Origin: Bacteroidota bacterium
GTDB lineage: Bacteria; Bacteroidota; Bacteroidia; B-17B0; Aurantibacillaceae
Reading direction: 5' to 3'
Assembly: GCA_947450025.1 (NCBI GenBank)
Contig: CANFTW010000004.1
Coordinates: forward strand, 1-64,000
DNA: 64,000 nt
The notes under the pieces are model-generated. The model searched no databases. It worked only from the letters and a program-made list of their open reading frames with translations, and was not told the origin of the DNA. Positions 2,160-56,114 of the stretch are shown here, one piece after another; the first letter of the stretch is position 1, and every line of letters begins with the position of its first letter. The position numbers were made by a program, and so were the translations under genes.

Positions 2160-2705
2160 TTACTTAACAACAGTTCCTAGTTTTATTAGCGAACTTGATA
2201 TTTTAAGCTTATGGGAATCAATATTTTTTTTATTAATCTCAAATTTCAATTCGTCTTCATCAGTTGTTGTAAAACTTATGGAAGCGCCTTTATAAACAGT
2301 CCCATCTCTTTCTCCAACTATCAAAATGGACTTGTCCTTATATTTTTCATCCAAAGGCTTAATACTTGAACTTTTAGAAGAAGTGACATAAAGCAATTGG
2401 CAACCAGCAGCCTCATCAATTGTTTTGCATTGTTTGAATACGATTGTTCTACCTTTTAATTTTTTTTGAGCTGCTAACACTTTAAATTCATTACTGATAG
2501 GTGAATCGCCATAAAGTCCTATCACGAAATTATCTGCACTTTGAGATTCGGGCCATTCAATATATTTCATAAAATTATATACATATAAAGCATATGATTT
2601 ATAATCTGTTTCTTGTGCTTTTAAATGACCATTAAAAAATAGCATCATAAAGCACACAAAAAACCAATTTGTTTTAAAACGAACTATATTGTTAAAAAAA
2701 CTCAA
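2160..2705 (-). CDS. YfiR-family (DUF4154) periplasmic protein, TonB-receptor linked
   Basis: The 181-residue product has a signal peptide (cut near residue 30, LKAQ) and the family hallmark near the N-terminus, YNFMKYIEWPE (EWP at 50-52), plus the C-terminal GASISF/LKF pattern seen in YfiR proteins. In Pseudomonas, YfiR is a periplasmic repressor of the diguanylate cyclase YfiN. Two cysteines (C93, C102) could form a disulfide. It starts with TTG inside the stop of the upstream TonB receptor (TTGA overlap), so the two are translationally coupled. The neighbouring divergent gene is a two-TM histidine kinase, the likely signalling partner (inference). A paralogue with the same EWP hallmark is at 51812-52342, also beside a receptor of the same type. 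Confidence 0.85.
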   Translation of the reverse strand: MSFFNNIVRFKTNWFFVCFMMLFFNGHLKAQETDYKSYALYVYNFMKYIEWPESQSADNFVIGLYGDSPISNEFKVLAAQKKLKGRTIVFKQCKTIDEAAGCQLLYVTSSKSSSIKPLDEKYKDKSILIVGERDGTVYKGASISFTTTDEDELKFEINKKNIDSHKLKISSSLIKLGTVVK

Positions 2706-4756
2706 TTGATTTTTTGTTTAAAATTTAAATTATACTGAATACGAACTATAATTTCTCTTGATGGACCAGGCAATGGAGCATGTCCACCATTATATGGTTG
2801 AATGAACTTAATTTTTTGATTTAACAAGTCGTAAACCCCTGCTCCAATCGTTAATCCTTTAACTGGAGTTTCATATCTCACAAAACAATTGATGAGTGTA
2901 GTAGGATTTAAGCTAGTTTGAACAGCCTGCCCTAAACTATCAAGGCTAGTCACAGCATAACGTTTACTATACCATGATGCTGTAGCGTTAATCGAAAGAT
3001 CCTTTGTAATGTTCCAATTAGCACAAAAATTTACACGGTGATTTGAAAAACCTAACAAAGACATATCATTCGGTGTTCTATAATCATCAATCCTTGATTT
3101 ATGAAGAACTGAATACAGCGCATAGTTAACAGAAAGATATCCCCACTTGTCCTTCATTTTATATTCAGCTTCAAGACCAATGGATCCAGATTTACCATAG
3201 TTTTTATAGCTATCTGTAATAGAAGAGGAGTCTTGAGTTGTATAATAAACAATTGGCTCGGAAGTATTGATATTATATCCATTAATGGTTATTATAGATT
3301 TCCTAGTGATTTGATATCCCAATTCAATTTCTCTAAAATCCGTGTACTCTGAATGAATGCAATTCGAATCGGCATAACTTATATTATCAATAGTTGGTGC
3401 TTTAAACGATTTGCTGTATAATAGTTTAAAATGGAACCGATTATATTTTTTAGTCAACCCTATTCTTGGCACGAAAGCATCTTCTGAAACAGCACTATGT
3501 TTATCATAACGAGCACCTAGAATAATATTAACGTAACGGGTTTTAATTAATCCTTGTGTAAAAAATGCAACATCATAATAATGAACTGTTTTTTTTCCAT
3601 TCGAAAAATAACTGCTATCAATATTATCAGTGGCATAATCTTGAAAACTTTCAGCACCCAAAACAACATTTAAAAATCGATTAGCATCATAGGACACTGT
3701 AATATTTTCTCGATATCGAACCGCTGTTTTTGAAAATACTGACTCATTATCATAGGCTGGCGATTTCCAAGGCATTTGAGTTTTGTAATTAAACTTTGGG
3801 GTAATGGTTAATTTATTATTCACTTTATAGACATATTTTAATTCCGAAAAAACAGAATTAAATTCATGGCTTACTGCATGAGATGCAATTTTTTCATAAC
3901 TATCACGTACTTGTAATTTATAAAAATCACCAATAACTCTTAAACTTAAGCCCTTATAACCTAAAACCGCATTAACATAATTAGTGTTGATATTAGATTG
4001 TCCATTCATAGAATAGCTTGAATCAGTATAATCCTTAAAGGTTTGGTCGCTACGTTGTGCCCTTCCTAAAAATCCAGACACACTAAACGAGAAATCTTTA
4101 GTCTTTTTTCCGATAGATAAATTGACATTTTTTCGCCCAAAGCCTTTTTCCATTTGCCCATAAGTTCCAGAAACGCTAACTCCATTAATATCTTCCGCTT
4201 GACGGGTAATAATATTAATCACACCATACTCCGCAAATCCACCATATATTGCAGAACCTGGCCCTCTAATAATTTCTATTTTTTTAATTTGTTCAATAGG
4301 GAAATGATTGCCATATTGAGTCGTACCATATAATGTCTCATTCATTTCTTGACCATCTAATAAAATTAAGATTTTACCTTCATGTGCCCAGTTACCTCTA
4401 AGCCCAATTCCAACAACCCCCTCAATATCCACGCCAAAATCAAAACCTGGCACTAAACGCAAGACATCAATCAAATCTCTTGCCCCAGACTTTTTGATTT
4501 CTTCTTCGGTTACTAAACTAATAATACTAGGAGTTTCCCGAACATTTATGGGTTTTTTTGAGGAGACTGAAATCAAACTATTAATTAAAGTTTCTAATTC
4601 AGAAGGAACACCATGTGCTTTTAAACTTAACAATTGTTCAAGCGACATGTCGTAATAACTTAAGGTATCTTTTTTTATAAGAGTTGTATCAACCTGGCTA
4701 TAGCCAAAAAAGGACAGGTTAAAAAGCGCAACTAGAAGCACTATAATCTTTTTCAT
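2702..4756 (-). CDS. TonB-dependent receptor of the YfiR-associated type
   Basis: The product (684 residues from the ATG at 4756) has a signal peptide, a short DMSLEQLLSLK segment typical of receptors that lack the carboxypeptidase-like N-domain, a plug domain (about 70-185, with IRGPGSAIYGG) and a beta-barrel running to the C-terminus. An in-frame TTG at 4765 would add three residues, but it overlaps a good -7 promoter element (4763-4770), so the ATG is preferred. It is the first gene of an operon with the YfiR gene, overlapping it by 4 bases. Receptors of this kind occur beside YfiR-like and HAMP sensor genes in proteobacteria, where they may sense or import a ligand for the pathway. The ligand cannot be read from sequence. 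Confidence 0.88.
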   Translation of the reverse strand: MKKIIVLLVALFNLSFFGYSQVDTTLIKKDTLSYYDMSLEQLLSLKAHGVPSELETLINSLISVSSKKPINVRETPSIISLVTEEEIKKSGARDLIDVLRLVPGFDFGVDIEGVVGIGLRGNWAHEGKILILLDGQEMNETLYGTTQYGNHFPIEQIKKIEIIRGPGSAIYGGFAEYGVINIITRQAEDINGVSVSGTYGQMEKGFGRKNVNLSIGKKTKDFSFSVSGFLGRAQRSDQTFKDYTDSSYSMNGQSNINTNYVNAVLGYKGLSLRVIGDFYKLQVRDSYEKIASHAVSHEFNSVFSELKYVYKVNNKLTITPKFNYKTQMPWKSPAYDNESVFSKTAVRYRENITVSYDANRFLNVVLGAESFQDYATDNIDSSYFSNGKKTVHYYDVAFFTQGLIKTRYVNIILGARYDKHSAVSEDAFVPRIGLTKKYNRFHFKLLYSKSFKAPTIDNISYADSNCIHSEYTDFREIELGYQITRKSIITINGYNINTSEPIVYYTTQDSSSITDSYKNYGKSGSIGLEAEYKMKDKWGYLSVNYALYSVLHKSRIDDYRTPNDMSLLGFSNHRVNFCANWNITKDLSINATASWYSKRYAVTSLDSLGQAVQTSLNPTTLINCFVRYETPVKGLTIGAGVYDLLNQKIKFIQPYNGGHAPLPGPSREIIVRIQYNLNFKQKIN

Positions 4757-4762
4757 GGAGAA

Positions 4763-4770
4763 CAAAACTA
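4763..4770 (-). promoter_or_regulatory. -7 promoter element of the TonB receptor-yfiR operon
   Basis: On the minus strand this reads TAGTTTTG, matching the Bacteroidota TAnnTTTG element. Its last G is 6 bases from the ATG at 4756, so the transcript would have almost no leader. No clear TTTG is seen at the -33 position. Confidence 0.5.
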
Positions 4771-4923: not shown

Positions 4924-6948
4924 ATGAAATCTAATATCTCGAAAATATTTTTTAATTTTCCTAAAATTGCTGTAATATTTTTTATCATCATTTTGACGGT
5001 GATTTTAAATTTTGGAATTAGCTACTATTTAATCAACAGAGAACGAGATAATATTGAGCAAATTTCAGATGTCATTAATCCATTCCTAGATAACTTAGAC
5101 GAATTGAGCGATGTTTTAATGGAATCAAGAATGTATGTAACGAATTGGGTATACCTTCCTTATGACATGCGTGATAAAAAAAATCTTTCCATTATACAAA
5201 AATACAGATACCAGAAAGCAAAAGTAAAAATTTCACAATTTATTAAAATCCTCAAGAGAAAAAATCATTCGATTGATTTGAACCCTGATAGTTTAGCACC
5301 CTTATTTTTTGAATTTGATGATTTGGTGAAATCTCAAAAAAAAATCATGACTCTGTTGGTTAATTTTGATGATTATGAGAATCCTGCGAAAAAATTTGAA
5401 GCAGAAGACATTATAGAAAATGAAGTTATTCCTAAAACTGAATCATTAGTAAAAAAGCTAAATCTTATTATTATTCATAACAAAGTTTTAGCAAGTAGCT
5501 TAAAAACTGAGTTAAATCAAGATACTCAGTTAATTTACAGACTCATCATTTCTTTTTCTTTGCTGACATTAATTTTTGTAATCTTATCCATTCGTTTTAT
5601 TACAATAAACATTAATCGTCCTGTTTTAAAAATGAAAGGTATTGTCAATCAATTAGCCAAAGGCGAATTACCTGATGATACGATTATTGCTGAAAAAAAT
5701 ATTATTGGTGAAATGGCTATCGAGGTTAATCGATTATCTATAAGTTTCACTAAAACGTCTGAATTTGCTAATGAAATTGGGAAAGGAAATTTACATGCTC
5801 AATATCAAAAATTAAGCGACAACGATATGCTCGGTAATGCCTTATTGAACATGCGTGACAGTTTAATTTCCTATTCCTATGATATGGAGACTCAAGTAAA
5901 AATTAGAACTGAAGAAGTGCTTGAGAAAAGCCGAAAAATTGAAGAACAAAAATTATTTTTCGAATCTATCTTTAACAATATTCCAATCGACATTATCATC
6001 TTTAATGAACATCATGAATACATATTTGTAAACAACATCGCCATAAAAGACCCTACCGTTAGAGACTATATGATTGGGAAAACGGATTTTGATTATTGCG
6101 AATTAAAGAAAATTGAGACAGAGGGCGCGCGAAATAGATTTGAGATTTTTGAAGCCGTAAAAATTTCTCGAGAAGATTTTGAATTTGAAGAAACATACCT
6201 CACCAAAAACAATATTCGTAAATGGCGATTACGTAAGTTTTATCCGGTTTATGACAAACAAGAATTTAAGTTCATGATTGGTTACGGCTTAGATATCACA
6301 ACTAAAAAAGAACATGAATTAAGTATTCAAGAATCCTTAGAAGAAAAAGAGGCACTATTAGGAGAAATTCATCACCGTGTTAAAAACAACCTCACTTTAG
6401 TCTTAGGACTTGTTGAAATGCAGCGAGAATATGTTACTGAAGAAAGAATAAAAGGACAATTTTCTGAAATTAGAAATCGAATTGCAGCGATGTCTCTTAT
6501 CCATGATAAGATGTACAGAGGCGTATCCTTTGCGAAAATTGATTTACAAGAATATTTAACCGATTTAATTATTTCGATTGCTAAATTTTACAAGAAAGAT
6601 AAAGAGGTAAAATTAAATTTTGATATTGAGCAAATTTTTGTGACCAGTAAAAACGCCGTACCTTTGGCTTTACTCGTTAATGAAATCATTACCAATGCCT
6701 TTAAATATGCATTTGAAAATAAAACTAATGGTCAACTTCAAATTTCACTTAAAGAAATTGAAGAAAATTATATTCTTCGAATACATGATAATGGAAAAGG
6801 TTTACCGGAAGATTTTGAAGCCTCTCAATCACAATCATTAGGATTTAAATTATTACAAATTTTCTCAAAACAATTAAAAGGACATCTTGATTTTCATAAT
6901 GATAATGGCTTAGTATTTATCATAAAATGGAAAGGCGAACGAGCTTAA
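4924..6948 (+). CDS. membrane histidine kinase: helical sensor-HAMP-PAS-HisKA_2-HATPase
   Basis: The 674-residue protein has TM1 (about 14-37), a periplasmic helical domain (38-204), TM2 (about 206-226), HAMP, a conserved block around E280-FANEIGKGN, a coiled coil, a PAS domain (about 340-455), a HisKA_2 dimerisation segment with EIHHRVKNN (H483/H484, one of which is the phosphate acceptor), and a HATPase_c domain with the N-box NEIITNAFK (N591) and HDNGKGLP. No receiver domain is fused and no response regulator is adjacent, so the partner is unknown. The periplasmic domain and post-HAMP block match the SpoIIE phosphatase receptor at 53287-55071. It is divergent from the TonB receptor-YfiR operon; by analogy with YfiN, YfiR may control it (inference). 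Confidence 0.9.
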   Translation: MKSNISKIFFNFPKIAVIFFIIILTVILNFGISYYLINRERDNIEQISDVINPFLDNLDELSDVLMESRMYVTNWVYLPYDMRDKKNLSIIQKYRYQKAKVKISQFIKILKRKNHSIDLNPDSLAPLFFEFDDLVKSQKKIMTLLVNFDDYENPAKKFEAEDIIENEVIPKTESLVKKLNLIIIHNKVLASSLKTELNQDTQLIYRLIISFSLLTLIFVILSIRFITININRPVLKMKGIVNQLAKGELPDDTIIAEKNIIGEMAIEVNRLSISFTKTSEFANEIGKGNLHAQYQKLSDNDMLGNALLNMRDSLISYSYDMETQVKIRTEEVLEKSRKIEEQKLFFESIFNNIPIDIIIFNEHHEYIFVNNIAIKDPTVRDYMIGKTDFDYCELKKIETEGARNRFEIFEAVKISREDFEFEETYLTKNNIRKWRLRKFYPVYDKQEFKFMIGYGLDITTKKEHELSIQESLEEKEALLGEIHHRVKNNLTLVLGLVEMQREYVTEERIKGQFSEIRNRIAAMSLIHDKMYRGVSFAKIDLQEYLTDLIISIAKFYKKDKEVKLNFDIEQIFVTSKNAVPLALLVNEIITNAFKYAFENKTNGQLQISLKEIEENYILRIHDNGKGLPEDFEASQSQSLGFKLLQIFSKQLKGHLDFHNDNGLVFIIKWKGERA

Positions 6949-7033
6949 TCTTATTTTTTATAGTTTTATTCTCATATTTTCACTAAAATTAGATGATAAT
7001 TGTTAAAATTTGATTAAACTTTTTAATCTCTAA

Positions 7034-7063
7034 TTTGTTTTTATCTCATAATCTGTATATTTG
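7034..7063 (+). promoter_or_regulatory. promoter of the small secreted protein-yidD-TonB receptor operon
   Basis: TTTG (7034-7037), an 18-base spacer and TATATTTG (7056-7063) make a close match to the Bacteroidota promoter. The TTG start codon at 7069 is only 5 bases further on, which implies a leaderless or nearly leaderless message. Confidence 0.65.
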
Positions 7064-7068
7064 ATAAG

Positions 7069-7401
7069 TTGAAACCTAAGTTTAAAATATTTTTATCTAT
7101 CACGCTTTTAGCTGTCGTTTTATTTGCAGCTATACCTAAAGTCTATATTCATGCTTTATTAGGTCATGAGCATAGTATTCTCAAATCAACTTCAGATGTT
7201 ACGGTAGATGAGTTAGAAGGCAACCAAGATTGTAATTTTGAAAAATTTGATACGCCAGTTTATTTTACGGTTTTTCAATTCATTTTAAACTTTCTTCCAT
7301 TAAAAGAATCCAAACAATCTTCATTTATATATAAACAGGAACACATTAATACGTCTCCTGATTATATTTATCCCTTAAGAGGTCCACCAACAGTAGCTTA
7401 A
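7069..7401 (+). CDS. small secreted or membrane-anchored protein ending in LRGPP
   Basis: The 110-residue product begins at a TTG; no ATG is available nearby. It has a hydrophobic N-terminal segment (about 7-26), then a His-containing stretch HALLGHEH, an acidic middle with one Cys, a hydrophobic patch and the C-terminal motif LRGPPT. Short secreted proteins with His residues and an RGPP/RAPP tail are found beside metal-linked TonB receptors (compare the DUF2946 group of proteobacteria), which fits the receptor two genes downstream. A role in metal sensing or trapping is only an inference. A protein of similar size and plan lies at 26660-27016 before the SulP transporter. It is 46 bases upstream of yidD, probably in one operon. 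Confidence 0.6.
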   Translation: MKPKFKIFLSITLLAVVLFAAIPKVYIHALLGHEHSILKSTSDVTVDELEGNQDCNFEKFDTPVYFTVFQFILNFLPLKESKQSSFIYKQEHINTSPDYIYPLRGPPTVA

Positions 7402-7447
7402 TTTATTTTTAAAATAATTTGAGTTATTCACCTTTTTAAAGAAAACA

Positions 7448-7657
7448 TTGAAATTTATACCTCTCGCGATTATTCGCTTTTATCAATACGCCATTTCTCC
7501 CTTACTAAAGCCGTCTTGTCGCTTTACGCCATCATGTTCACAATATGGATTAGATGCAGTGAATAAATATGGAGCCTTTAAAGGAAGTTGGATGACCCTT
7601 AAACGTATTATGCGTTGTCATCCTTGGGGCGGAAGTGGCTATGATCCAGTAAAATAA
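7448..7657 (+). CDS. yidD: membrane protein insertion efficiency factor YidD
   Basis: The 69-residue product starts with TTG and carries all YidD hallmarks: [12 protein letters not shown], the paired cysteines in [10 protein letters not shown], and the C-terminal [13 protein letters not shown]. YidD is a small amphipathic protein at the inner face of the membrane that helps YidC-dependent insertion. In most bacteria it sits in the rpmH-rnpA-yidD-yidC cluster; here it lies between a small secreted protein and a TonB receptor, with gaps of 46 and 39 bases, so it has been separated from that cluster. Length is normal for the family. Confidence 0.95.
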
Positions 7658-7696
7658 AAGAGTACAGAGGATTTAAGTTTCTTTTTCAAAGAAATC

Positions 7697-10180
7697 ATGA
7701 CGATTAAATATATCATTAGCAGTATTGCATTAATACTCTCTTTTCATTCCTATTCACAAAATTCATTAAAAGGAAAAATTACCGACAAACAAACTCACGA
7801 AGCTTTACCTGGTGTCATCTTATACTTCCCAGATTTTAAAAGTTCGAGTGTGACCAATATGAATGGCAATTACGAAATGAATCAATTACCATCTACAACA
7901 ACTTTATTACAAGTTAGAATATTAGGATACCAAACCATTATAAAAACCATTGATTTATCATCGACCTCTCAAATTGATTTTGAAATGGAGCCATCTCATA
8001 TTGAAGCTAATGAAGTTGTTGTAACAGGTGTTTCAAAAGCTACAGAAATCAAACGAAACCCTGTTCCAATGGTGTCAGTTGATCAAACCTATTTAGAACA
8101 AAATACCGCTACCAATATTATTGATGCCGTAAGTAAAGTACCTGGCGTTAATGTGTTAAGCACTGGCCCAAATGTATCAAAACCATATATACGTGGCTTA
8201 GGCTATAACCGTATACTAACTTTATTTGACGGTATTAGACAAGAGGGCCAACAATGGGGGGATGAACACGGCATTGAAATGGATCAATATTTAATAGACC
8301 GTATAGAAGTGATTAAAGGTCCTGCCAGTTTAATTTATGGATCCGATGCATTAGCTGGTGTAGTTAATTTATTACCAGCTAATACAAGCCCTGAAGGAAC
8401 TATAAAAGGAAGCTTACAAACTAATTACCAAACTAATAATGGCTTATATGCAGGTTCAGGAGCATTTTCAGGTAATATCAAAAGTGTGGTATTTGGATTT
8501 AGAGCAACTCATAAAGAAGCAAAAGATTTTCAAAATAAATATGATGGAAGAGTTTATAACACCGGATTTAAAGAAACAGATATCAATGCATACTTAGGTG
8601 TTAATCGAAAATGGGGATACTCACATGTGAATTTTAGCGTATTTAATAATTTACAGGAAATACCAGATGGTAGTAGAGATTCATTGACTAGAAAATTCAC
8701 TAAACAAATTACAGAAGCGGATACCATAAGGCCCATTGTTGATCTTCATGAATTAAACTCATATCAAATGAGTCCTATTCATCAGCAAGTACAACATTAT
8801 CGGTTGTTTTCAAGTAATCAATTTATACTTCACCAAAATAAATTAGCTATAAAATTAGGCTATCAGCAAAGTATTCGTAAAGAATTTGCGCATCCTCAAA
8901 ACCCTGATATTGCTGGACTTTATTTAAAATTACAAACAGTCAGCTATGATGCTAAATTTTATTTCCCTGAAAAAAATGGTTGGGAATCTGCCATTGGAAT
9001 TAATGGGATGTATCAAATTAATGATGTTGCCAAAGGAACTGAATTTGTTATTCCAAATTTTACTCTAATAGACTTTGCTCCATTTATTTATCTAAAAAAA
9101 GAATTAAAAAAATTAACAATAGCAGCTGGTGCAAGATATGATACTCGAACTTTTAACAACACCGAACTTTATACAAATACCAACTCCAATAACGGTTTTG
9201 AAATGGTAGTGAGCGATACAACAGGCGCCACCAAACAATTTTCAAATTACCACCATGTGTTTCATGGAGTATCTGGAAGTATTGGAATAACATACAAATT
9301 AACCGAACAAGTGTTTATTAAAGCAAATATTGCCAGAGGATATAGAGCTCCAAACATTTCTGAGATATCGGCTAAAGGCGTGCATCCAGGAACTGGGTTT
9401 CAACAATTAGGTGATGCTAATTTTAAACCTGAATTTAATTTACAGGAAGATATTGGAATCTTTTTCGATAGTCATCATTTATCCATGAGCGCTGAATTAT
9501 TTAATAACAGCATTGATCATTATATATTTAATCAAAAACTACAAAGTCTTTCAGGCGGAGATTCAATTTATACTGAAGCAGGAAATCAATATCCTGTTTA
9601 TAAATTCAAGCAAACCAAAGCGCAATTATTTGGAGGCGAAGCTCGCATAGACATTCATCCTCATCCTTTAGATTGGTTACATTTTGAAAATTCTATATCC
9701 TTGGTATATGCTATCAATAAAGGTGGAAATGGAGCGATCATTAACGATAGCAATCGATTTTTACCATTTATTCCGCCACTGCATACCAACTCAGAACTGA
9801 GAGCAGAATTTCGAAAAAAACTAGGATTCTTTCATCACGCCTATTTTAAAATAGGTATGCAATATTATGCCGCTCAAAACAGAGTATTACTTGCCGACAA
9901 TACAGAAACAAAAACACCAAGTTATACATTATTTGATTTAGGTTTAGGAACCGATATTTGTACTAAAAAAGAAGTCACTATTTGCACGATTGGTATTTTC
10001 ATCACTAACTTAACGGACCTTGCTTATCAATCAAACATGAGTCGTTTAAAGTATTTTGATAATTACCCAAACAATGGAACAGGCCGTTCAGGTATTTATA
10101 GTATGGGAAGAAATGTCAGTTTTAAATTAACGATTCCTTTAAATATTAATTTGAAAGAAAAAACTATAAATATTAATTAG
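7697..10180 (+). CDS. TonB-dependent receptor with carboxypeptidase-like N-domain
   Basis: The 827-residue protein has a signal peptide (1-20), a carboxypeptidase-regulatory-like domain (about 24-105, GKITDKQTHEALPGVI), a plug (about 115-230, with VPGVNVL and IKGPASLIYGSDALAGVV) and a large barrel with late segments such as RGYRAPNISE. It is the last gene of the operon starting at 7069. The substrate is not readable; the His-containing LRGPP protein upstream hints at a metal or metal complex, which is inference. Its stop overlaps the 3' end of the convergent glycosyltransferase gene by 8 bases, so the two genes share their tails and no terminator separates them. Confidence 0.92.
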   Translation: MTIKYIISSIALILSFHSYSQNSLKGKITDKQTHEALPGVILYFPDFKSSSVTNMNGNYEMNQLPSTTTLLQVRILGYQTIIKTIDLSSTSQIDFEMEPSHIEANEVVVTGVSKATEIKRNPVPMVSVDQTYLEQNTATNIIDAVSKVPGVNVLSTGPNVSKPYIRGLGYNRILTLFDGIRQEGQQWGDEHGIEMDQYLIDRIEVIKGPASLIYGSDALAGVVNLLPANTSPEGTIKGSLQTNYQTNNGLYAGSGAFSGNIKSVVFGFRATHKEAKDFQNKYDGRVYNTGFKETDINAYLGVNRKWGYSHVNFSVFNNLQEIPDGSRDSLTRKFTKQITEADTIRPIVDLHELNSYQMSPIHQQVQHYRLFSSNQFILHQNKLAIKLGYQQSIRKEFAHPQNPDIAGLYLKLQTVSYDAKFYFPEKNGWESAIGINGMYQINDVAKGTEFVIPNFTLIDFAPFIYLKKELKKLTIAAGARYDTRTFNNTELYTNTNSNNGFEMVVSDTTGATKQFSNYHHVFHGVSGSIGITYKLTEQVFIKANIARGYRAPNISEISAKGVHPGTGFQQLGDANFKPEFNLQEDIGIFFDSHHLSMSAELFNNSIDHYIFNQKLQSLSGGDSIYTEAGNQYPVYKFKQTKAQLFGGEARIDIHPHPLDWLHFENSISLVYAINKGGNGAIINDSNRFLPFIPPLHTNSELRAEFRKKLGFFHHAYFKIGMQYYAAQNRVLLADNTETKTPSYTLFDLGLGTDICTKKEVTICTIGIFITNLTDLAYQSNMSRLKYFDNYPNNGTGRSGIYSMGRNVSFKLTIPLNINLKEKTININ

Positions 10181-48681: not shown

Positions 48682-49932
48682 ATGTTCGCGTTTATAAAAG
48701 ATTATAAAAAATTAAAGCCTGCCATCATGAATGTGATTGTTGCCGAATTTTTTATACAATTAGTTAATGCTACCTTTATGTTAATTCTGCCATTATACAT
48801 GGATAGAAAAGGGTACTCAGAAGAGGAGATTGCTCTATTTATCACCTTTCGATTTTTAGGTGTTTTCGCCTTAGCATTACCAATTGGAAATATTATTAAA
48901 GGACGAGTGATGAAACCATTTTTTATCATATCCTCCTTATTTGTTCCTCTATTTGGCTTGTGTATAGTGCTTTGTGTGAATCTTCAATTAACCAATCTTA
49001 TATACGTTTCACTTTTATTGTGGGGAGCATCATTTACCTTCATGCAAATACCAATCACTCCTTACATATTAAGAAACGAACGAAAGGAAGAACACACCTC
49101 CGGAATTGCATTAAGTTATAGTACCTGGAGTTTTGCTGGTATAGCAAGTGGTGTTATCATTGCCTTTTTAGATAGAATTAATCCATGGTATTTTGATGAA
49201 GAAAAAATATTAATTCTCTTTTCTATTCTCGGCTTTGGTGGTTTATATTTTATGAGTAAAGTCAATTTAAAAGAAGAAATAGATGATGATAAAACCACCA
49301 TTAAAAAAACGAAGACCCATAAAAACGATTGGTTTTTAATTTTTAAAGGCTTAGTTCCAACACTTATTATTGCTACTGGAGCAGGATTAACCATTCCATT
49401 TATTAGTTTATTTTTTGATAAAGTTCACCACATGGGTAAAGGTGATTTTTCTTTTGTCAGTGCTATTGCCGCTGTTTTAGTTGTTTGGGGAGCCTTAATG
49501 GTACCTCGTATTAAAGCAACTATTGGTTATAAAATTGCCATTCCTACCACACAATCGTTAGCCGTGATTTCATTAGTTGCATTGGCTACCACTCAATTTT
49601 ACAGTCAACATAGTATAGCTGTTTACATTGCCATTATTTGTTATTTATTACGTCAGCCACTCATGAATATGGCTGGGCCAATGACTTCTGAACTTGTGAT
49701 GAATTATGTAGGAGAAAAAAACAGAGAAATTACGAGTGCGTTAACTGCAGCTATTTGGAGTGGAAGTTGGGTTATTAGTGGCTATATGGTAAAAATTATG
49801 TTTAGTAAAGGCTATCCATACGTCAACATTTTTTTAATCACAGCAGGCCTTTATGCCTTTGGTGTGTTAATGTATTATTTTTTGATTGTTGATTATGGGA
49901 AACGAGAAAAGAAAGGTTTAATAAAATCCTAG
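48682..49932 (+). CDS. MFS transporter
   Basis: The 416-residue protein has about 12 TM helices in two bundles with a charged loop in the middle (KEEIDDDKTTIKKTKTHKN), and an Arg in ITFRFLGVFALALPIG of the typical MFS loop. Substrate is not readable; drug or small-metabolite efflux is possible. It follows miaA by 3 bases and its last 4 bases overlap the end of the convergent anti-sigma-like gene. Confidence 0.85.
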   Translation: MFAFIKDYKKLKPAIMNVIVAEFFIQLVNATFMLILPLYMDRKGYSEEEIALFITFRFLGVFALALPIGNIIKGRVMKPFFIISSLFVPLFGLCIVLCVNLQLTNLIYVSLLLWGASFTFMQIPITPYILRNERKEEHTSGIALSYSTWSFAGIASGVIIAFLDRINPWYFDEEKILILFSILGFGGLYFMSKVNLKEEIDDDKTTIKKTKTHKNDWFLIFKGLVPTLIIATGAGLTIPFISLFFDKVHHMGKGDFSFVSAIAAVLVVWGALMVPRIKATIGYKIAIPTTQSLAVISLVALATTQFYSQHSIAVYIAIICYLLRQPLMNMAGPMTSELVMNYVGEKNREITSALTAAIWSGSWVISGYMVKIMFSKGYPYVNIFLITAGLYAFGVLMYYFLIVDYGKREKKGLIKS

Positions 49933-51101
49933 AAATTTAATGTAAATTCAGCAACCGATGAAGCGTTCCAGTTTTTCATTGTATTTAAGGCTTCTTTAAT
50001 TTTATCAGAGCAACCCTCACAATACTCTTTACTAATTTGCGTAATGGTATCTACCTTCAATTCTCCTTTTGCATTTACCTTACCTAAAACTTCATATTTC
50101 CCTTTCATTGAACTATTTTGTGAATGCTCCTTTAAATAGTTTAATACATACTCTTTAATTGCTGATTCACCTCCCGAATAGGATGTTATATTCGATTGTT
50201 CCTTATTAATAGAAGTGGCTGGTGCAGATGCTTTATTAACTGTTGTTAACGTCATTTTTTCAGAAGCAGCAATTTCTTTAGTTCCGTTTTGACTTTCCTC
50301 ATTTTTAGTCACTTTGTAATCTCCATCTACTTTACTCGTATATTCGACTTGAGAAACCGAATTACCATTAGAAAGAGATTTACTTTCTAAAACAACAGAA
50401 GCCTTATCAATTTCGATTTTATCATTATTTGAACTTATTTTTTCTTTTTGTTTTAATTCTGCTTTTTTATCAATCGCAATTGACTGAGCATTCAATTCGT
50501 CTAAAGATTCTTCTTTCCTGTTTTTAAAATAATCTTTCGATTCATCTGTTAATCTGGCAACTGGGGTCATTGATTTATTTTGAGATAATGTTGAAGCTGA
50601 TGAAGAATTATTTTTTGTTTCAGATTCTGATAAAACGTTTTTTGAATTAATAACCTCTTCCAACTTTTCAACCTTATCTGATTCGATTTCTTTAGAATCA
50701 GAATTTGATGGATTAATAAACTCTTGTAGTTTTTGACCTTCCGTTACAGTTTCTTTATTTTCATTAATCGCTAAATTTGAATCGGATGATTGTTTGGCTT
50801 TATTAAAGAAAAATATTGAAATCATGACCACTAAAACTATAGAGGCTGCTGCGCTAAACCAAACAATCTTATGTTTTTGACCGCCCTTTTGTTCAGTAAC
50901 TTTTTTTGAAATTGACGCATTGACTTCCTCTACTAAAGTTTTTGCTTTTTCGGAATTTGCGAGAGAAGTATATCCTTCCAAGGCTTCTTTTTCAAAATCA
51001 TCCATATCATCAAAATTCATCTCAGAGTTAGATGGATGATCTAACCACTGAAATAATTCTTCAGAGCTTAATGGATGTTTATGTTTATCTTGGTGCTTCA
51101 C
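49929..51101 (-). CDS. probable anti-sigma factor, single-TM
   Basis: The 390-residue product has a cytoplasmic N-terminal part with the SSEELFQWLDHP segment and acidic DDMDDFEKEALEGY seen in Bacteroidota anti-sigma factors, one TM helix (about 79-99), a long low-complexity Ser/Asn/Lys/Glu-rich periplasmic region, and a C-terminal domain (about 300-390) with one CEGC pair and a KGKYEVLGKVNAKGEL strand pattern that resembles a TonB-C-like domain. Its start overlaps the sigma gene end by 17 bases, as expected for a sigma/anti-sigma pair. Confidence 0.75.
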   Translation of the reverse strand: MKHQDKHKHPLSSEELFQWLDHPSNSEMNFDDMDDFEKEALEGYTSLANSEKAKTLVEEVNASISKKVTEQKGGQKHKIVWFSAAASIVLVVMISIFFFNKAKQSSDSNLAINENKETVTEGQKLQEFINPSNSDSKEIESDKVEKLEEVINSKNVLSESETKNNSSSASTLSQNKSMTPVARLTDESKDYFKNRKEESLDELNAQSIAIDKKAELKQKEKISSNNDKIEIDKASVVLESKSLSNGNSVSQVEYTSKVDGDYKVTKNEESQNGTKEIAASEKMTLTTVNKASAPATSINKEQSNITSYSGGESAIKEYVLNYLKEHSQNSSMKGKYEVLGKVNAKGELKVDTITQISKEYCEGCSDKIKEALNTMKNWNASSVAEFTLNF

Positions 51102-51675
51102 TGTTTTTTTCTAATTTAATTTTCAAATTTCTTTTTCCATTTTGAATAAAGCTTTTTACCTCATTCAAAGAATATCCTGTTTCATCTGCAATTTCGTTAT
51201 ATGATCTTTCTTTTAGATAAAATAACATGATACATTTTCTCTGATCTTCATTTAACTCTTCAATCGCTTTCTCTAATAGTGTATATTGAATCTCTTTTTC
51301 TGATGCTTGATTAAGATGAGAACTTGATTCAGTTTCCATAAATAAATCAGCATGTACCTCCAAATTAATCTCTTTTTTAAGTTTAGACTGCTGATTTCTT
51401 AAGATCATCAAACAATGATTTTTAGAAAAGGTATATAACCAACTTTTAAAATACTCTATATTAAATTTTAATAAATCGGCCAATAGCTTTTCGAAAATTT
51501 GCATCACGGCATCTTTTGCCTCATCTTCATCTTTTAAATATTTTAAAGAAAGACCCAATACCAAATGAGCATAGCGCTTATATAACATCCCTACAAACAC
51601 ATTGTTTTTGGTGTGTTTATACTCCGTAATTAACTCGTTATCAGAGAAATGGTTATATTTTTCGTTATATAGCAC
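51085..51675 (-). CDS. ECF-type RNA polymerase sigma factor
   Basis: The 196-residue protein has region 2 (YKRYAHLVLGLSLKYLKDEDEAKDAV, read in parts) and region 4 with the helix-turn-helix RSYNEIADETGYSLNEVKSFI. Regions are joined by a normal-length linker. It overlaps its partner anti-sigma gene downstream and is divergent, across 136 bases, from the second YfiR operon, so it may control that operon too; however that operon has a vegetative-type promoter (51735-51765). Confidence 0.9.
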   Translation of the reverse strand: MLYNEKYNHFSDNELITEYKHTKNNVFVGMLYKRYAHLVLGLSLKYLKDEDEAKDAVMQIFEKLLADLLKFNIEYFKSWLYTFSKNHCLMILRNQQSKLKKEINLEVHADLFMETESSSHLNQASEKEIQYTLLEKAIEELNEDQRKCIMLFYLKERSYNEIADETGYSLNEVKSFIQNGKRNLKIKLEKNSEAPR

Positions 51676-51811: not shown

Positions 51812-52342
51812 TTGAAAAACATCATAAAATATTGCTTATTATTCATTTTGGCTTTTTCGAGTCTTGGATTTCAGCAAATTCAAAATTATGATACTAACTC
51901 AAAACTAAAGGCTGCCTATTTATTTAATTTTACTCGAAATTTTGAATGGCCTGAAAAAATGAAAACAGGAAGTTTCATCATTCAATTAGTTGGTAACAAT
52001 CCTAATCTTTCTAGTGAATTAAATAAAATGGCTTCTACAAAACAAGTAGGAAGTCAAAAATTAGAAATTAGAACAACAACCTCCATCGAATCTTCCATTC
52101 AACCTCATATTATTTTTTTATTAAACGAGTCTTCTGATTTATTAAAAGAAGCCTCGTCCAAATATAAAGGCAAAGGCTCATTAATTGTGACAGAAAAAGC
52201 TGGATTAGCCAAATCTGGGGCAACCATAAATTTTATTGCAGTAGATAATAAATTGAAATTTGAATACAGTAACAATAATGCGAAAAAAGCAGGATTAAAA
52301 ACGAGTGAAGTACTTAAAGGACTAGCTATTGCAGTTGATTAA
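51812..52342 (+). CDS. YfiR-family (DUF4154) periplasmic protein, phosphatase-linked
   Basis: The 176-residue product starts with TTG (GAAAAACATC follows), has a signal peptide and the family motif AAYLFNFTRNFEWPE (EWP at 45-47). The paralogue at 2160-2705 shares EWP, the following FVIGL/FIIQL strand, the KYK.K..LIV strand and GA.I.F. It lacks the two cysteines of that paralogue. It opens an operon with a TPR protein (14-base gap) and the SpoIIE-type receptor (12-base gap). By analogy with YfiR-YfiN it may control the receptor from the periplasm (inference). Confidence 0.85.
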   Translation: MKNIIKYCLLFILAFSSLGFQQIQNYDTNSKLKAAYLFNFTRNFEWPEKMKTGSFIIQLVGNNPNLSSELNKMASTKQVGSQKLEIRTTTSIESSIQPHIIFLLNESSDLLKEASSKYKGKGSLIVTEKAGLAKSGATINFIAVDNKLKFEYSNNNAKKAGLKTSEVLKGLAIAVD

Positions 52343-52356
52343 ATATATTATTAAAT

Positions 52357-53274
52357 TTGTATAAAGTGTTAAAATACTCAAAATCATATCATTACCTAAA
52401 AAACATTCTAAGTTTTTTAATGGTGATTTTTTGTCATAACTCCTATGCACAAAATGATTTGTTATTTGAAGCACAAAAACTTTGTAACGAGAAAAAGTAC
52501 GACTTAGCGATTCCAATGTTGGAAAAAGTCATTGTTCATCCAGAAACAAAAAATGATCCTGCATCTTGGCATATCCGTTCTTTTGCCTATTTACAAACCT
52601 ATAAATTAGCGGGGGCAGGAAATACTTCTAAAATCAATTTATTAGATACAGCTTTATCGTCTGCCTTAATCTCCATCAAATTAGATACCGCTAAAAACTA
52701 TTTAGACAATAACATTGCTTTTGTTAAAAATGGGGCTGCTAGCTATTATAAAATAAGCACCATTTTATTACAAGATTCCATTAATAATATGAAGTCTGAA
52801 TTGTATTATAATAAATATAAAAAGTACACTGCAATAATTAATCCTGGTTTTGATTTCAAAGAAAAAGACATTGAATATTACAAAACAACTGGCAGTATTT
52901 ATGCTGACTTGTACATGAAAAATAATTTTTATCAAAAATATGGAGACATTGCTAAAACGTCTCTATTAAAAGTGTTAGAATTAGATCCTAAAAATATTAA
53001 TGCAAATGTGAACTTAGGCGTTTTATACTATAACCAAGGTGTTACCTTAATGAAAATGATGGAATACGATGTGGATTTAGCACAACTAGATGTCATTCAA
53101 GAAAATGCTAAAAAATTATTTAAACAATCGTTACCATTTATGATCAAAGTGTATGAGCAAGACCCTAAAGCTGAAAAAGTTTTAGAAAGCTTAGAAGGCA
53201 TATACTCAGCCTTAATGGATGACAAAAAAGCAAACGAATTTAAACAAAAAAAAGAAGCCTTAAGTAAACCATAG
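52357..53274 (+). CDS. secreted TPR protein of the second YfiR operon
   Basis: The 305-residue product starts at TTG (GTG at 52366 is possible), has a signal peptide (cut near YAQ, residue 32) and three or four TPR-like units including AIPMLEKVIVHPE, TSLLKVLELDPKNINANVNLGVLYY and QSLPFMIKVYEQDP, read as separate segments. It sits between the YfiR gene and the phosphatase receptor, so it may be a periplasmic scaffold or accessory for that pair. I do not know a named family. Confidence 0.72.
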   Translation: MYKVLKYSKSYHYLKNILSFLMVIFCHNSYAQNDLLFEAQKLCNEKKYDLAIPMLEKVIVHPETKNDPASWHIRSFAYLQTYKLAGAGNTSKINLLDTALSSALISIKLDTAKNYLDNNIAFVKNGAASYYKISTILLQDSINNMKSELYYNKYKKYTAIINPGFDFKEKDIEYYKTTGSIYADLYMKNNFYQKYGDIAKTSLLKVLELDPKNINANVNLGVLYYNQGVTLMKMMEYDVDLAQLDVIQENAKKLFKQSLPFMIKVYEQDPKAEKVLESLEGIYSALMDDKKANEFKQKKEALSKP

Positions 53275-53286
53275 GCTGGCTGTTAT

Positions 53287-55071
53287 ATGGCATTCAAATT
53301 TACCATCGGAAGAAAAATAGGAACAGGATTTGGTATTTTACTAATACTAACACTTATTGCGTTTATATTTACGATTGTTACGATTAAAAAAAGTAAACAA
53401 CAAACCGATTCGGTAGTTGGGCAAGTAACACCATCTGTTTCTGCACTCAAAGAATACAACTTTATTTTACAAAAGTCACAAACATTAATTTCTAAATGGT
53501 TTTTCAATCAAACATCTAACGACGATGCTTCTAAAACTGAACTCAGAACGTTAATTAGCAGAGATTATCCAAGTATCAAATCTAAAATAGGTGAACTATC
53601 CACTGATTGGACGAAAGATGAGAGAGAAAAAGTTAAGTCGATTATTTTTTTTAGTGATGGGTTATTTAAACTTTACCAAGAGGAAATCATGACTCCTTTA
53701 AATTCTTGGGAAAGCTATCAAGACCCTAGTATTAAATTGGTTGCTACCATTCCGTTTGAAGATAGTCAAGAAAAAATACGAATACTATACACACAGTTAA
53801 ACGAATTAATTACTCAAAAAGAATTAAATGCGGAAGAAACAACCGATCAAATGTTCCAGTCTTTTGATTTTTTAGATCAATTTGTAAAAGCCCTAGGGAT
53901 TAGTTTATTTTTTGGTGGAATTTTAATTGCCTTTTTAACCACACGTTCAATTACTAAGCCCATTCAACAGCTTAAAAAAATGTTATTATCAATGGGCTTA
54001 GGTATTTTACCAAAAGAACGGATTAATTACAGAACTGATGAAATTGGCGAAATGGGCATTGCCTTAAATAGTTTGGTGGAATCAATGGAAAGCACCACGG
54101 AATTTGCCAAACAAACGGGTAAAGGAAATTTTGACGCCTACTACAAACCACTTAGTAAAGACGATAGTTTGGGGCATGCTTTATTAAAAATGCGTAACGA
54201 TTTATCGGAAAACGAACGCGTTTTGGAACAAAAAGTTATTGAGCGTACCGAACAAGTGGTTAAGCAAAAAGAAGAAATTGAAGTTAAGACCAAGGAGCTT
54301 GAAATTCTATTCAAACAAGTGACCGATAGTATTCATTATGCCAAGCGTATACAAGAAGCTATCCTTCCGCCAAATAATTTGGTAAAAAAATTCTTACCAG
54401 AATCGTTTGTTTTATACAAACCGAAAGATATTGTAAGTGGTGATTTTTATTGGATCGATCAAAAAGGAGATTGGAGTTATTTTGCAGCGGTAGATTGTAC
54501 TGGACATGGAGTACCTGGTGCTTTTATGAGTATTGTAGGGTATAACTTACTGAAAGATATTTTAAAAAATACAGAAAGCATGGAGCCATCCATTATTATG
54601 GATAAGATGAATGATGGCGTTGCACATACCTTGCATACCAATACCACATCGGGTAAACAAACTAAAGATGGGATGGACATGGCTCTTTGTGCCTTAAATT
54701 ATCAAACCTTAGAATTACAATATTCGGGAGCCTTTAATCCACTTTATATTATTAGAGGAGAAGAATTAATTCAATACAAGGCCAATAAATTTCCAGTAGG
54801 GATGTTTATTGGAGACAAACAAAACTTTACAAACCATCGTATTCAATTGCAAAAAGGTGATCGGATTTATATTTTCTCTGATGGATATGCTGATCAATTT
54901 GGTGGACCGAAAGGAAAAAAATTCATGGCAGGAAATTTCCGTCAATTATTAATGGATGTGAGTAAATTGCCTATTGAAAAACAAAAAACAACCTTAAATC
55001 AAACCATTGAAGAGTGGAGAGGGAATTTAGAACAGGTTGATGATATTCTAATCATTGGAGTCACGATTTAA
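53287..55071 (+). CDS. two-TM receptor with SpoIIE/PP2C-type phosphatase output
   Basis: The 594-residue protein has TM1 (about 11-30), a periplasmic helical domain, TM2 (about 201-220), HAMP, a conserved block at E272-FAKQTGKGN, a coiled coil (about 300-350) and a SpoIIE-like phosphatase: SGDFYW (D386), AAVDCTGHG (D403), DGMDMAL (D464) and FSDGYADQ (D532), the aspartates that hold the two metal ions. Such phosphatases act on phosphoserine or threonine of STAS-type or other regulators; the target here is unknown. The periplasmic domain and block match those of the histidine kinase at 4924-6948. It ends the YfiR operon, before a terminator. Confidence 0.92.
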   Translation: MAFKFTIGRKIGTGFGILLILTLIAFIFTIVTIKKSKQQTDSVVGQVTPSVSALKEYNFILQKSQTLISKWFFNQTSNDDASKTELRTLISRDYPSIKSKIGELSTDWTKDEREKVKSIIFFSDGLFKLYQEEIMTPLNSWESYQDPSIKLVATIPFEDSQEKIRILYTQLNELITQKELNAEETTDQMFQSFDFLDQFVKALGISLFFGGILIAFLTTRSITKPIQQLKKMLLSMGLGILPKERINYRTDEIGEMGIALNSLVESMESTTEFAKQTGKGNFDAYYKPLSKDDSLGHALLKMRNDLSENERVLEQKVIERTEQVVKQKEEIEVKTKELEILFKQVTDSIHYAKRIQEAILPPNNLVKKFLPESFVLYKPKDIVSGDFYWIDQKGDWSYFAAVDCTGHGVPGAFMSIVGYNLLKDILKNTESMEPSIIMDKMNDGVAHTLHTNTTSGKQTKDGMDMALCALNYQTLELQYSGAFNPLYIIRGEELIQYKANKFPVGMFIGDKQNFTNHRIQLQKGDRIYIFSDGYADQFGGPKGKKFMAGNFRQLLMDVSKLPIEKQKTTLNQTIEEWRGNLEQVDDILIIGVTI

Positions 55072-55130: not shown

Positions 55131-56114
55131 ATGCTAAAATCTCTCAGTATACTGATTATATCAACCATATTGGTTAATCCTATTTTTGCTCAAGATAATA
55201 CCCTTGACACGTCAAAGTATAAAGATTTAAGAAACCGCATACAAGACCAAACTATTTTCTTGAAATTTGACCCACAAAACAAAGATGCCTATCTTAAAAG
55301 GTCGTATTACAAATCGCAAATGAATAATCATCAAGGCGCTATTGAAGATTTAAATACCTATTTAGAATTAGACCCTACAGATTATAAAGCCTATAACAGC
55401 AGAGCGTTTTCGAAAGAAAGAATTGACGATATTAAAGGCGCAATGGATGATTACACCCAAAGCATTGAATTAAAAAAAGATTTTATGGATCCATACTATG
55501 GAAGAGCCATTAATTTTTATAAAATGAAAAATTTTAAGGCCGCTTTAAATGATTTAGATGTGGTTTTAAAATTAGATCCCAATTACATGGAATGTTATTT
55601 ATATAGAGGATATACGTTAATGGAATTGAAAGACTATGAAAGTGCTATTCGAGATTTTAATCGTGTGATAGAAGTCTACCCTGATAACTCAAAAGCCTAC
55701 AATAACCGTGGCATGTCTAAATATTTTTTAAAAGATTATATTGGCGCTATGGAGGATATGAATATTGCTATTAAACTAACACCTGACTATGCTCAAGCGT
55801 TTAATAAGAGAGGACAAGTAAAACTTGCGTTATTGGATTTTAAAGGGGCTTTAGATGACTTAAATAAATCCATTCAATTATTTGCCTTTAATGCCTCTGC
55901 CTACAATAACAGAGCGGCGGCCAAAATTGAATTAAAAGATTATGCAGGAGCCATTTCCGACCTTGATCAATCTATTGAATTAGACCCCGAACTTCCTGAA
56001 ACCTACAATAACAGAGGGGCACTTTATGAACAAATGGGAAATCTGCAAAAAGCTAAACTTGATTACAAAATGGCGGATTTTAAAATGAAAACAAATGCCG
56101 TTCAAAACAAATAA
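55131..56114 (+). CDS. secreted TPR protein
   Basis: The 327-residue product has a signal peptide (cut near IFAQ, residue 21) and about eight TPR units of the type AI.DL...LELDP..Y.AY.NR, typical of periplasmic TPR proteins. The repeats are regular and share phrases such as AYNNRG and DLDQSIELDP, showing recent duplication within the gene. It sits 8 bases before the Crp/Fnr gene, so the two are likely cotranscribed. Function unknown. Confidence 0.85.
   Translation: MLKSLSILIISTILVNPIFAQDNTLDTSKYKDLRNRIQDQTIFLKFDPQNKDAYLKRSYYKSQMNNHQGAIEDLNTYLELDPTDYKAYNSRAFSKERIDDIKGAMDDYTQSIELKKDFMDPYYGRAINFYKMKNFKAALNDLDVVLKLDPNYMECYLYRGYTLMELKDYESAIRDFNRVIEVYPDNSKAYNNRGMSKYFLKDYIGAMEDMNIAIKLTPDYAQAFNKRGQVKLALLDFKGALDDLNKSIQLFAFNASAYNNRAAAKIELKDYAGAISDLDQSIELDPELPETYNNRGALYEQMGNLQKAKLDYKMADFKMKTNAVQNK

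Follow-up and report, generated by a model that had tools for sequence, protein, structure and literature searches.

In the literature so far, as represented by the parts cited here, YfiR regulates receptors of the PAS type, most of which are diguanylate cyclases controlling biofilms. The closest described system is YfiBNR of Pseudomonas aeruginosa, in which residues F162 and L183 of YfiR are implicated in YfiN binding (PMC3375315). The section on related systems in the same paper (Malone et al., 2012) describes modules of YfiR and the YfiN PAS domain whose outputs are GGDEF-EAL, HPT or histidine kinases. The second system to be considered here is SiaABCD, where, in the part of the work cited, the Pseudomonas phosphatase SiaA dephosphorylates SiaC at T68 (PMC7647112).

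Two YfiR loci in one window

The host genome is 3.2 Mb in size and 99.96% complete, and the window (the whole 64-kb stretch of DNA that was analysed) lies on its contig C4. The genome has two DUF4154/YfiR genes, both inside the window and one in each of two receptor loci, with the following features.

2160-2705, minus strand: yfiR1, YfiR/DUF4154 of the kinase locus (PF13689, 1e-35)
2702-4765, minus strand: TonB-dependent receptor between yfiR1 and the divergent kinase (Plug, 9e-18)
4924-6948, plus strand: receptor with HisKA_2/HATPase kinase output, 674 aa (HisKA_2, 8e-23; HATPase_c, 7e-9)
5029-5535, plus strand: periplasmic sensor of the kinase, homologous to the phosphatase sensor (profile comparisons)
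5761-5865, plus strand: post-HAMP block E280-L314 of the kinase (alignment with the phosphatase receptor)
51085-51675, minus strand: ECF-type sigma factor, divergent, upstream of yfiR2 (Sigma70_r2/r4)
51812-52342, plus strand: yfiR2, YfiR/DUF4154 of the phosphatase operon (PF13689, 5e-26)
52357-53274, plus strand: putatively exported TPR protein, third component of the phosphatase operon, 305 aa (TPR_11, 6e-6)
53287-55071, plus strand: receptor with SpoIIE/PP2C-type phosphatase output, 594 aa (Pfam SpoIIE, 1e-18; HAMP, 1.5e-6)
53386-53874, plus strand: periplasmic sensor of the phosphatase, residues 34-196, predicted four-helix bundle (sensor profile, AlphaFold, VIA)
53938-54090, plus strand: HAMP domain of the phosphatase receptor (Pfam)
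54100-54204, plus strand: post-HAMP block E272-L306 of the phosphatase receptor (alignment with the kinase)
54481-55065, plus strand: SpoIIE phosphatase domain (Pfam)

In the kinase locus yfiR1 overlaps the TonB-dependent receptor gene by 4 bp and the kinase gene is divergent, while in the phosphatase locus all three genes are on the plus strand with gaps of 14 and 12 bp. A sequence-only reading of the window had placed each receptor beside a YfiR paralogue. They are indeed in the same locus, but in each case one gene that was not mentioned there, for the TPR protein or the TonB-dependent receptor, stands between them.

The middle part of the kinase reads as PAS-like and has no Pfam match. The phosphatase output is predicted to be a SpoIIE domain, with 68 bits against a Pfam cut-off of 25. 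Its residues D386, D403, D464, D532, D585 and D586, which we take to be the metal ligands, are invariant among 34 aligned relatives.

Some neighbours of the phosphatase operon are worth recording. The ECF sigma factor gene is followed by a gene for a 390-aa protein, read as an anti-sigma factor from its context, the pair occupying 49929-51675 on the minus strand. The sigma factor could, on this sequence context, possibly be part of the yfiR2 system. A sigma gene is the divergent neighbour in only 27 of the 49 yfiR-tpr loci that have an upstream gene in view, and it was dropped as a fixed part; in 24 of these 27 it is followed by a gene of the 390-aa type. Directly after the phosphatase gene there is a second TPR-rich protein (55131-56114, plus strand); among the neighbours listed, no related phosphatase is directly followed by a match to it.

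A common input half

Judged by their sequences, the phosphatase and the kinase share their entire input half, that is TM1, the periplasmic domain, TM2, HAMP and the post-HAMP block, and the relationship is real. The sequence-only reading had proposed that the second receptor shares its sensor and post-HAMP block with the kinase and ends in a phosphatase, and BLASTP, profiles and Pfam all bear this out. The residues it quoted are exact, both in position and in sequence, namely E272-FAKQTGKGN...LSKDDSLGHALLKMRNDL for the phosphatase and E280-FANEIGKGN...LSDNDMLGNALLNMRDSL for the kinase.

Over their full length the two receptors align with 110 bits, covering 369 residues at 27% identity (BLASTP). 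In their own genome the first 350 residues of the phosphatase match the kinase alone (E 2e-27), and its first 345 residues match the kinase at E 5e-30. The other two HAMP receptors of the genome above the Pfam cut-off match the phosphatase only from residues 151 and 180 on, with E-values of 8e-7 and 5e-4, one of them (L133) being N-terminally cut in the stretch compared. The sensor similarity therefore lies above the background of the genome's other HAMP receptors.

For the periplasmic domains alone, pairwise BLASTP is weak, giving E 0.001 in one direction and no real match in the other. Their Smith-Waterman score is 86, compared with 34.5 +/- 5.6 for 500 shuffles (maximum 58), which is about 9 SD above. 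Profiles of the sensor from 34 phosphatases and 7 kinases, made from alignments that excluded receptors shorter than 450 aa, match each other with an hhalign probability of 99.7% and E 2e-25. An HMM of the phosphatase sensor detects the window kinase at E 2e-15. Run against the ORFs from the window and from 64 loci, its matches up to E 1 were confined to these receptors, two of which are truncated at a contig end. Because the profile match is clear and the Smith-Waterman score lies above all of the shuffles, the sensor domains are homologous.

Residues 220-330 of 33 phosphatases match the equivalent part of 7 kinases, HAMP included, at E 3e-36 (hhalign). The post-HAMP block is modelled by AlphaFold as helix-connector-helix. 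It was suspected of being a degenerate second HAMP, for which the sequence comparisons gave negative or ambiguous results. Eight strict block sequences gave no HAMP match; 5 of 13 longer pieces match HAMP, but these contain the tail of the first HAMP, and hhalign of the block against the first HAMP aligned only their 6-residue overlap. Two proteins encoded directly after a YfiR-linked receptor (L121 10101-12443 and L126 10076-12418) match the block weakly, at 21-26 bits. The former is dCache-HAMP-GAF-PAS by Pfam; the latter is like-placed. Because of these weak matches the block is perhaps not peculiar to YfiR receptors; it was dropped as a marker for them, and it may be a wider sequence feature.

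Predicted structure of the sensor

No Pfam family covers the sensor of either window receptor, and neither has a CHASE8 match. Among the sensor receptors scanned with Pfam, only that of L116 matches 4HB_MCP_1, at 23.2 bits, below the cut-off of 27. AlphaFold, supplied with 26 sequences, predicts the phosphatase sensor as four long helices, with a mean pLDDT of 87 for the receptor model and 86-96 in ten-residue blocks of the sensor. In the VIA comparison the sensor matches the MCP2201 ligand-binding domain with Z 15.5 and rmsd 2.1 over 139 residues, and chain L of XylFII-LytSN with Z 15.5 and rmsd 1.8 over 122 residues, followed by NarQ, PcaY, TorS, Tsr and Tar. Because mostly helical models without true relatives can reach a best Z near 14, the likeness of fold rests on the run of periplasmic sensors that tops the VIA list. 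Foldseek gave nothing below 1e-3 for the sensor model, its first match being NarQ at 1.7e-3. Sequence matches of the sensor in the PDB, to designed coiled-coil bundles (E 0.003-0.2), were put down to composition and rejected. The sensor is thus modelled as a four-helix bundle of the chemoreceptor type, unlike the PAS-like CHASE8 domain of YfiN.

Two residues of the bundle, W71 and Y144, are invariant in 26/26 sensors. In the AlphaFold model they adjoin loops at what, from the order of the helices, is predicted to be the membrane-distal tip. The proposed YfiR site on Pseudomonas YfiN is likewise placed on the membrane-distal surface (PMC3375315, in the part cited).

Many of the closest folds are, going by their titles, ligand-bound chemoreceptor or nitrate-sensor domains (MCP2201, NarQ, Tsr and Tar). 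An alternative explanation is that the bundle is itself the direct sensor of a small molecule, in the manner of Tar and NarQ, and that YfiR works only with the TPR or TonB component, sharing a stimulus with the receptor and making no contact with it. We consider this unlikely, although it is the most probable of the rivals. Against it, bundles of this kind are also found, again by PDB title, in structures with partner proteins (TorS-TorT, LytS-XylFII and QseE-QseG), and the linkage, distance and fusion results described below bear on it too.

Linkage to YfiR across genomes

In a set of 60 relatives that includes the host genome, 48 have YfiR (PF13689) and 43 match the sensor profile. Every one of the 43 sensor-bearing genomes also has YfiR, which argues against direct ligand sensing. 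Of 52 sensor matches, 45 are within 5 kb of a YfiR gene, one probable single gene split across two contigs (G012) being counted twice. Six of the other seven are on a contig other than that of any YfiR, five of these in assemblies of 120 to 1130 contigs and the sixth in G050, and one is 75 kb away (G043). Further afield, taking one genome for each other family of the class, the sensor occurs in 11 of 23, all among the 13 with YfiR; in a sample of the phylum it occurs in 5 of 198, all five among the 26 with YfiR. The linkage that the earlier reading expected in other genomes is accordingly present.

In named Bacteroidota there are at least 27 loci, of which 25 carry the sensor by HMM. Among the matches listed, 14 of these end in SpoIIE and 11 in GAF. 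YfiR is in view in 10 of the 14; the contigs of L105 and L106 start too late to show an upstream YfiR, and L112 and L113 have no YfiR match upstream. Of the 11 GAF loci among the matches listed, 4 have YfiR adjoining (L118, L120, L121 and L126), 2 are cut, and 5 have no YfiR neighbour (L116, L122, L124, L127 and L128). These five of nine GAF-type loci in view are the point in the genome data that favours a sensor acting directly on its ligand. For the GAF output the linkage is only partial. That every sensor gene is linked to YfiR was dropped as a statement, the exceptions being the GAF subgroup, L112, L113, G043, and G050 and G242, whose sensors are unlinked with YfiR elsewhere in the genome. 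In L124 a protein with three LysM matches and a periplasmic-binding-protein domain (6008-7906) is encoded just upstream of the sensor-GAF receptor, and from its sequence could possibly be a replacement partner for YfiR.

Since both copies lie within one 64-kb stretch, it might be supposed that these are ordinary paralogous HAMP receptors, and that the YfiR linkage is a leftover of duplication without function. This is disfavoured, and we give it very little credence. The linkage is retained in other families of the class as well as in records with the titles Flavobacteriales, Salibacteraceae, Salinivirgaceae and Bacteroidales; the outputs are swapped while input and YfiR stay; and the kinase-linked and phosphatase-linked YfiRs of the genus fall in different starred clades of the YfiR tree.

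YfiR proteins and the third component

A profile of 20 YfiR sequences matches structures of P. aeruginosa YfiR in the PDB (E 7e-7); as a single query, YfiR1 of the window matched no PDB chain. In the profile alignment to 4zhu, the YfiN-binding residues F162 and L183 correspond to F150 and L171 of YfiR2, positions that are conserved in at least 90% of 20 YfiR homologues, the check being limited to these two. The columns of the YfiR disulfide C145-C152 have no cysteines in either window YfiR. Our own YfiR HMM missed the YfiR of L072, which Pfam detected. We also record two tandem YfiR genes (170 and 222 aa; G202 contig C14, L161 7200-8473), beside which our HMMs recognised no receptor.

The loci compared contain 49 sensor-SpoIIE genes. 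Two of these run into a contig end, and 42 of the other 47 are immediately preceded on their own strand by the TPR gene and, before it, YfiR (L040 and L108 represent a single locus). Median intergenic gaps of 13.5 and 12 bp were measured in 40 complete operons; these were picked for having three complete genes in that order, and the order among them is not itself a result.

The third gene was tallied according to the receptor that accompanies YfiR. Where YfiR has a sensor-SpoIIE partner, a TPR gene is present in 42/44 loci and a TonB-receptor match in none. With a sensor-kinase partner TonB is found in 7/7 loci, and with a CHASE8-kinase partner in 6/7. Five loci with a sensor-GAF partner have neither; two more, L035 and L065, which have a TPR gene and were at first labelled GAF, were relabelled because their receptors are truncated at a contig end. 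The phylum sample gave 35 YfiR matches, and the surroundings of 16 were compared: 4 encode fusions, 11 include a CHASE8 receptor, and the remaining one shows no receptor. In this second CHASE8 set a TonB match is present in 6/11, and in a further CHASE8 locus (L166) Pfam identifies a TonB-dependent receptor at a distance of two genes.

The TPR protein of the window scores 26.3 bits for TPR_11, just below the cut-off of 26.8. It is modelled as a TPR superhelix (pLDDT 89.6), and its VIA list consists mostly of TPR proteins, with Z up to 14.7. It starts like an export signal, with a conserved 'AQ' after an N-terminal hydrophobic stretch, and is thus predicted from its sequence to be exported.

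YfiR sequences also tend to group according to their partner. On a YfiR tree (84 rows, quick method, pieces below 100 aa excluded) the partner labels need 20 changes, as against 38.3 when shuffled, with 0/200 shuffles as low; both shuffles and hypergeometric figures take related genomes to be independent. The groups are not cleanly separated, and the sensor-SpoIIE label alone needs 14 changes. In the 40 operons (L108 removed as the same locus as L040), YfiR and sensor distances remain correlated when the HAMP/block distance is removed (partial r 0.52, 0/500 permutations). The corresponding values are 0.58 (0/500) for TPR and sensor, 0.27 (1/500) for YfiR and TPR, and 0.12 (78/500) for YfiR and SpoIIE, the last becoming 0.23 (12/500) without L061 and L062. 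Tree and distance tests alike remove shared ancestry only in part. A correlation of sensor with YfiR beyond that of HAMP and block speaks against a bundle that only binds a small molecule, although the TPR-sensor value is as high.

Outputs, swaps and fusions

The sequence-only reading had seen one sensory module coupled to two outputs. The module is supported, and across relatives the outputs are in fact more than two. Besides the SpoIIE phosphatase and the HisKA_2 and HATPase kinase of the window, the sensor is found with a GAF and HisKA hybrid kinase with receiver (L086 and L089) and with GAF (L116, L118 and L120-L128). Among the matches listed, 4 of these 11 GAF-output receptors have a PAS over the Pfam cut-off, and Pfam detects no catalytic domain in any of them. 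The receptor of L058 is without HAMP and block.

Two receptors are natural swaps of the SpoIIE half. The input half of L061 (9378-11135) is 77% identical to the window receptor, and its output half finds its best match in a different SpoIIE protein from the genome that contains the window (67%, 373 bits); the phosphatase of the window is absent from its four best matches. L062 (9448-11199) is swapped likewise, with 57% identity in the input and 76% in the output to another SpoIIE protein. Both could possibly be assembly chimeras.

YfiR is also fused straight to outputs. In three genomes it is joined to SpoIIE (L066 7875-9665, L067 7908-9830 and L068 7917-9650), with a TM helix between the two on reading the sequence, and in four genomes to HisKA/HATPase (L162-L165). 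These are apparently one-component versions of the system, and their existence counts against the notion that YfiR acts without contact with a ligand-sensing receptor.

Downstream of the receptors

At E 0.001, Pfam finds no GGDEF domain in the host's own 99.96% complete genome. In the 60 relatives there is one weak match, with an internal stop, and none in the other 59. This points to a YfiR signalling route that would be independent of c-di-GMP. YfiR and SiaA do act on c-di-GMP in Pseudomonas (PMC2837407 and PMC7647112, in the parts cited), and the C-terminal half of the phosphatase matches the NCBIfam SiaA model with 210 bits, so the system might be supposed to feed c-di-GMP as YfiBNR or SiaABCD do, through a cyclase encoded elsewhere. 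Given that GGDEF is absent from the genome itself and from 59/60 relatives, this is the least probable of the explanations considered here, a shade below a leftover of duplication. What might still sustain it is a GGDEF domain that has diverged beyond the reach of Pfam, or a different cyclic nucleotide.

In the phosphatase operon we recognised neither a SiaC nor a STAS nor a partner-kinase gene. Genome-wide there are 20 SpoIIE domains, and 2 SiaC, 1 STAS (PF01740) and 2 DUF6272 matches, which makes for many phosphatases and few proteins of the substrate type in the SiaC, STAS and DUF6272 families searched. Contig C17 has four adjoining genes: one for a Reg_prop-Y_Y_Y-SpoIIE protein, one other, and those for DUF6272 and SiaC. 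The YfiR-linked phosphatase may be one of many inputs onto a few phosphoproteins; this is the weakest step in the argument, the search having covered SiaC, PF01740 and DUF6272.

Proposed mechanism

We propose that these receptors form a YfiR-gated family with one input module and exchangeable outputs, and put the chance that this reading and the following mechanism are correct at about two in three. YfiR, in the periplasm, would dock on the membrane-distal end of the bundle and keep the receptor in one of its states. Control of YfiR would fall to a third component, also exported, in place of the Pseudomonas YfiB, this controller being the TPR protein in phosphatase operons and the TonB-dependent outer-membrane receptor in kinase loci. 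Release or binding of YfiR, whichever the sign of regulation may be, would then be passed through HAMP and the block to the output. The phosphatase copy in the window probably acts on a phosphoprotein of the SiaC or STAS type that belongs to a partner switch; the HisKA_2 kinase would be driven by the second copy, in both cases without c-di-GMP. In favour of the proposal are the homology of the sensors, the linkage, gene order, fusions, swaps and distance correlations, the conserved residues of YfiR and of the bundle, and the missing GGDEF. Against it stand the sensors that have no YfiR neighbour, the phosphatase operon in which no substrate or partner-kinase gene was seen, and a TonB match in no more than 6/11 of the second CHASE8 set.

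A broader reading, for and against which we see the case as evenly balanced, is that YfiR serves generally as an adaptor in the periplasm and has passed from a PAS fold to an unrelated four-helix bundle of the chemoreceptor type. In Bacteroidota without c-di-GMP it would then connect a kinase with an outer-membrane TonB receptor, or a serine/threonine phosphatase with a secreted TPR protein, the third component going with the output and not with the sensor fold.

If the proposal is true, a single adaptor works with two receptor folds that are unrelated and with three or more kinds of output, and Bacteroidota without detected GGDEF possess a YfiR pathway of their own that leads from the envelope to partner-switch phosphoproteins. 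The swaps of output found in nature are, moreover, ready-made chimeras for studying signal transfer through HAMP and the block.

Comparison with known systems

The loci resemble YfiBNR in that a periplasmic YfiR is encoded with a two-TM HAMP receptor, in the conservation of the YfiN-binding residues F162 and L183, and in the presence of a third exported component. They differ in that the sensor is modelled as a four-helix bundle where that of YfiN is PAS-like, that the output is SpoIIE or HisKA_2 in place of GGDEF, that a TPR or TonB gene stands at the locus where YfiB, an OmpA/Pal-type lipoprotein, would be, and that cysteines C145 and C152 of YfiR are not conserved.

In the SiaABCD system, SiaA is likewise a HAMP-linked PP2C/SpoIIE phosphatase, and its NCBIfam model matches over the block and phosphatase. 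However, the match to NF038263 is 209.9 bits, far below the cut-off of 700, and no SiaB, SiaC or SiaD gene adjoins, the SiaC and DUF6272 genes being on other contigs. TorS-TorT, LytS-XylFII and QseE-QseG are of the same fold class and, by PDB title, have partner proteins, but those partners are not YfiR and the identities are 7-10%.

The modules of Malone et al. (2012) show the same principle of one YfiR input with exchanged outputs, the PAS sensor there being kept (PMC3375315, in the section cited), and the CHASE8-kinases that adjoin YfiR in the present phylum look like that PAS type. Section 12 of that paper names neither a SpoIIE output nor a non-PAS sensor; its Table S4 may possibly include a SpoIIE output. 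Among the papers listed by our search of CC-licensed PMC articles there was none on YfiR signalling in Bacteroidota, YfiR with SpoIIE, this sensor or the TPR partner. The earlier view that such a family is absent from the literature therefore needs to be divided: exchange of outputs is known for the PAS type (PMC3375315), and what is unreported, within the sources cited, is the four-helix sensor and the SpoIIE output. Compared with the known YfiR modules, the present ones differ in the fold of the receptor, in having SpoIIE and GAF outputs and a TPR partner, and in the absence of GGDEF.
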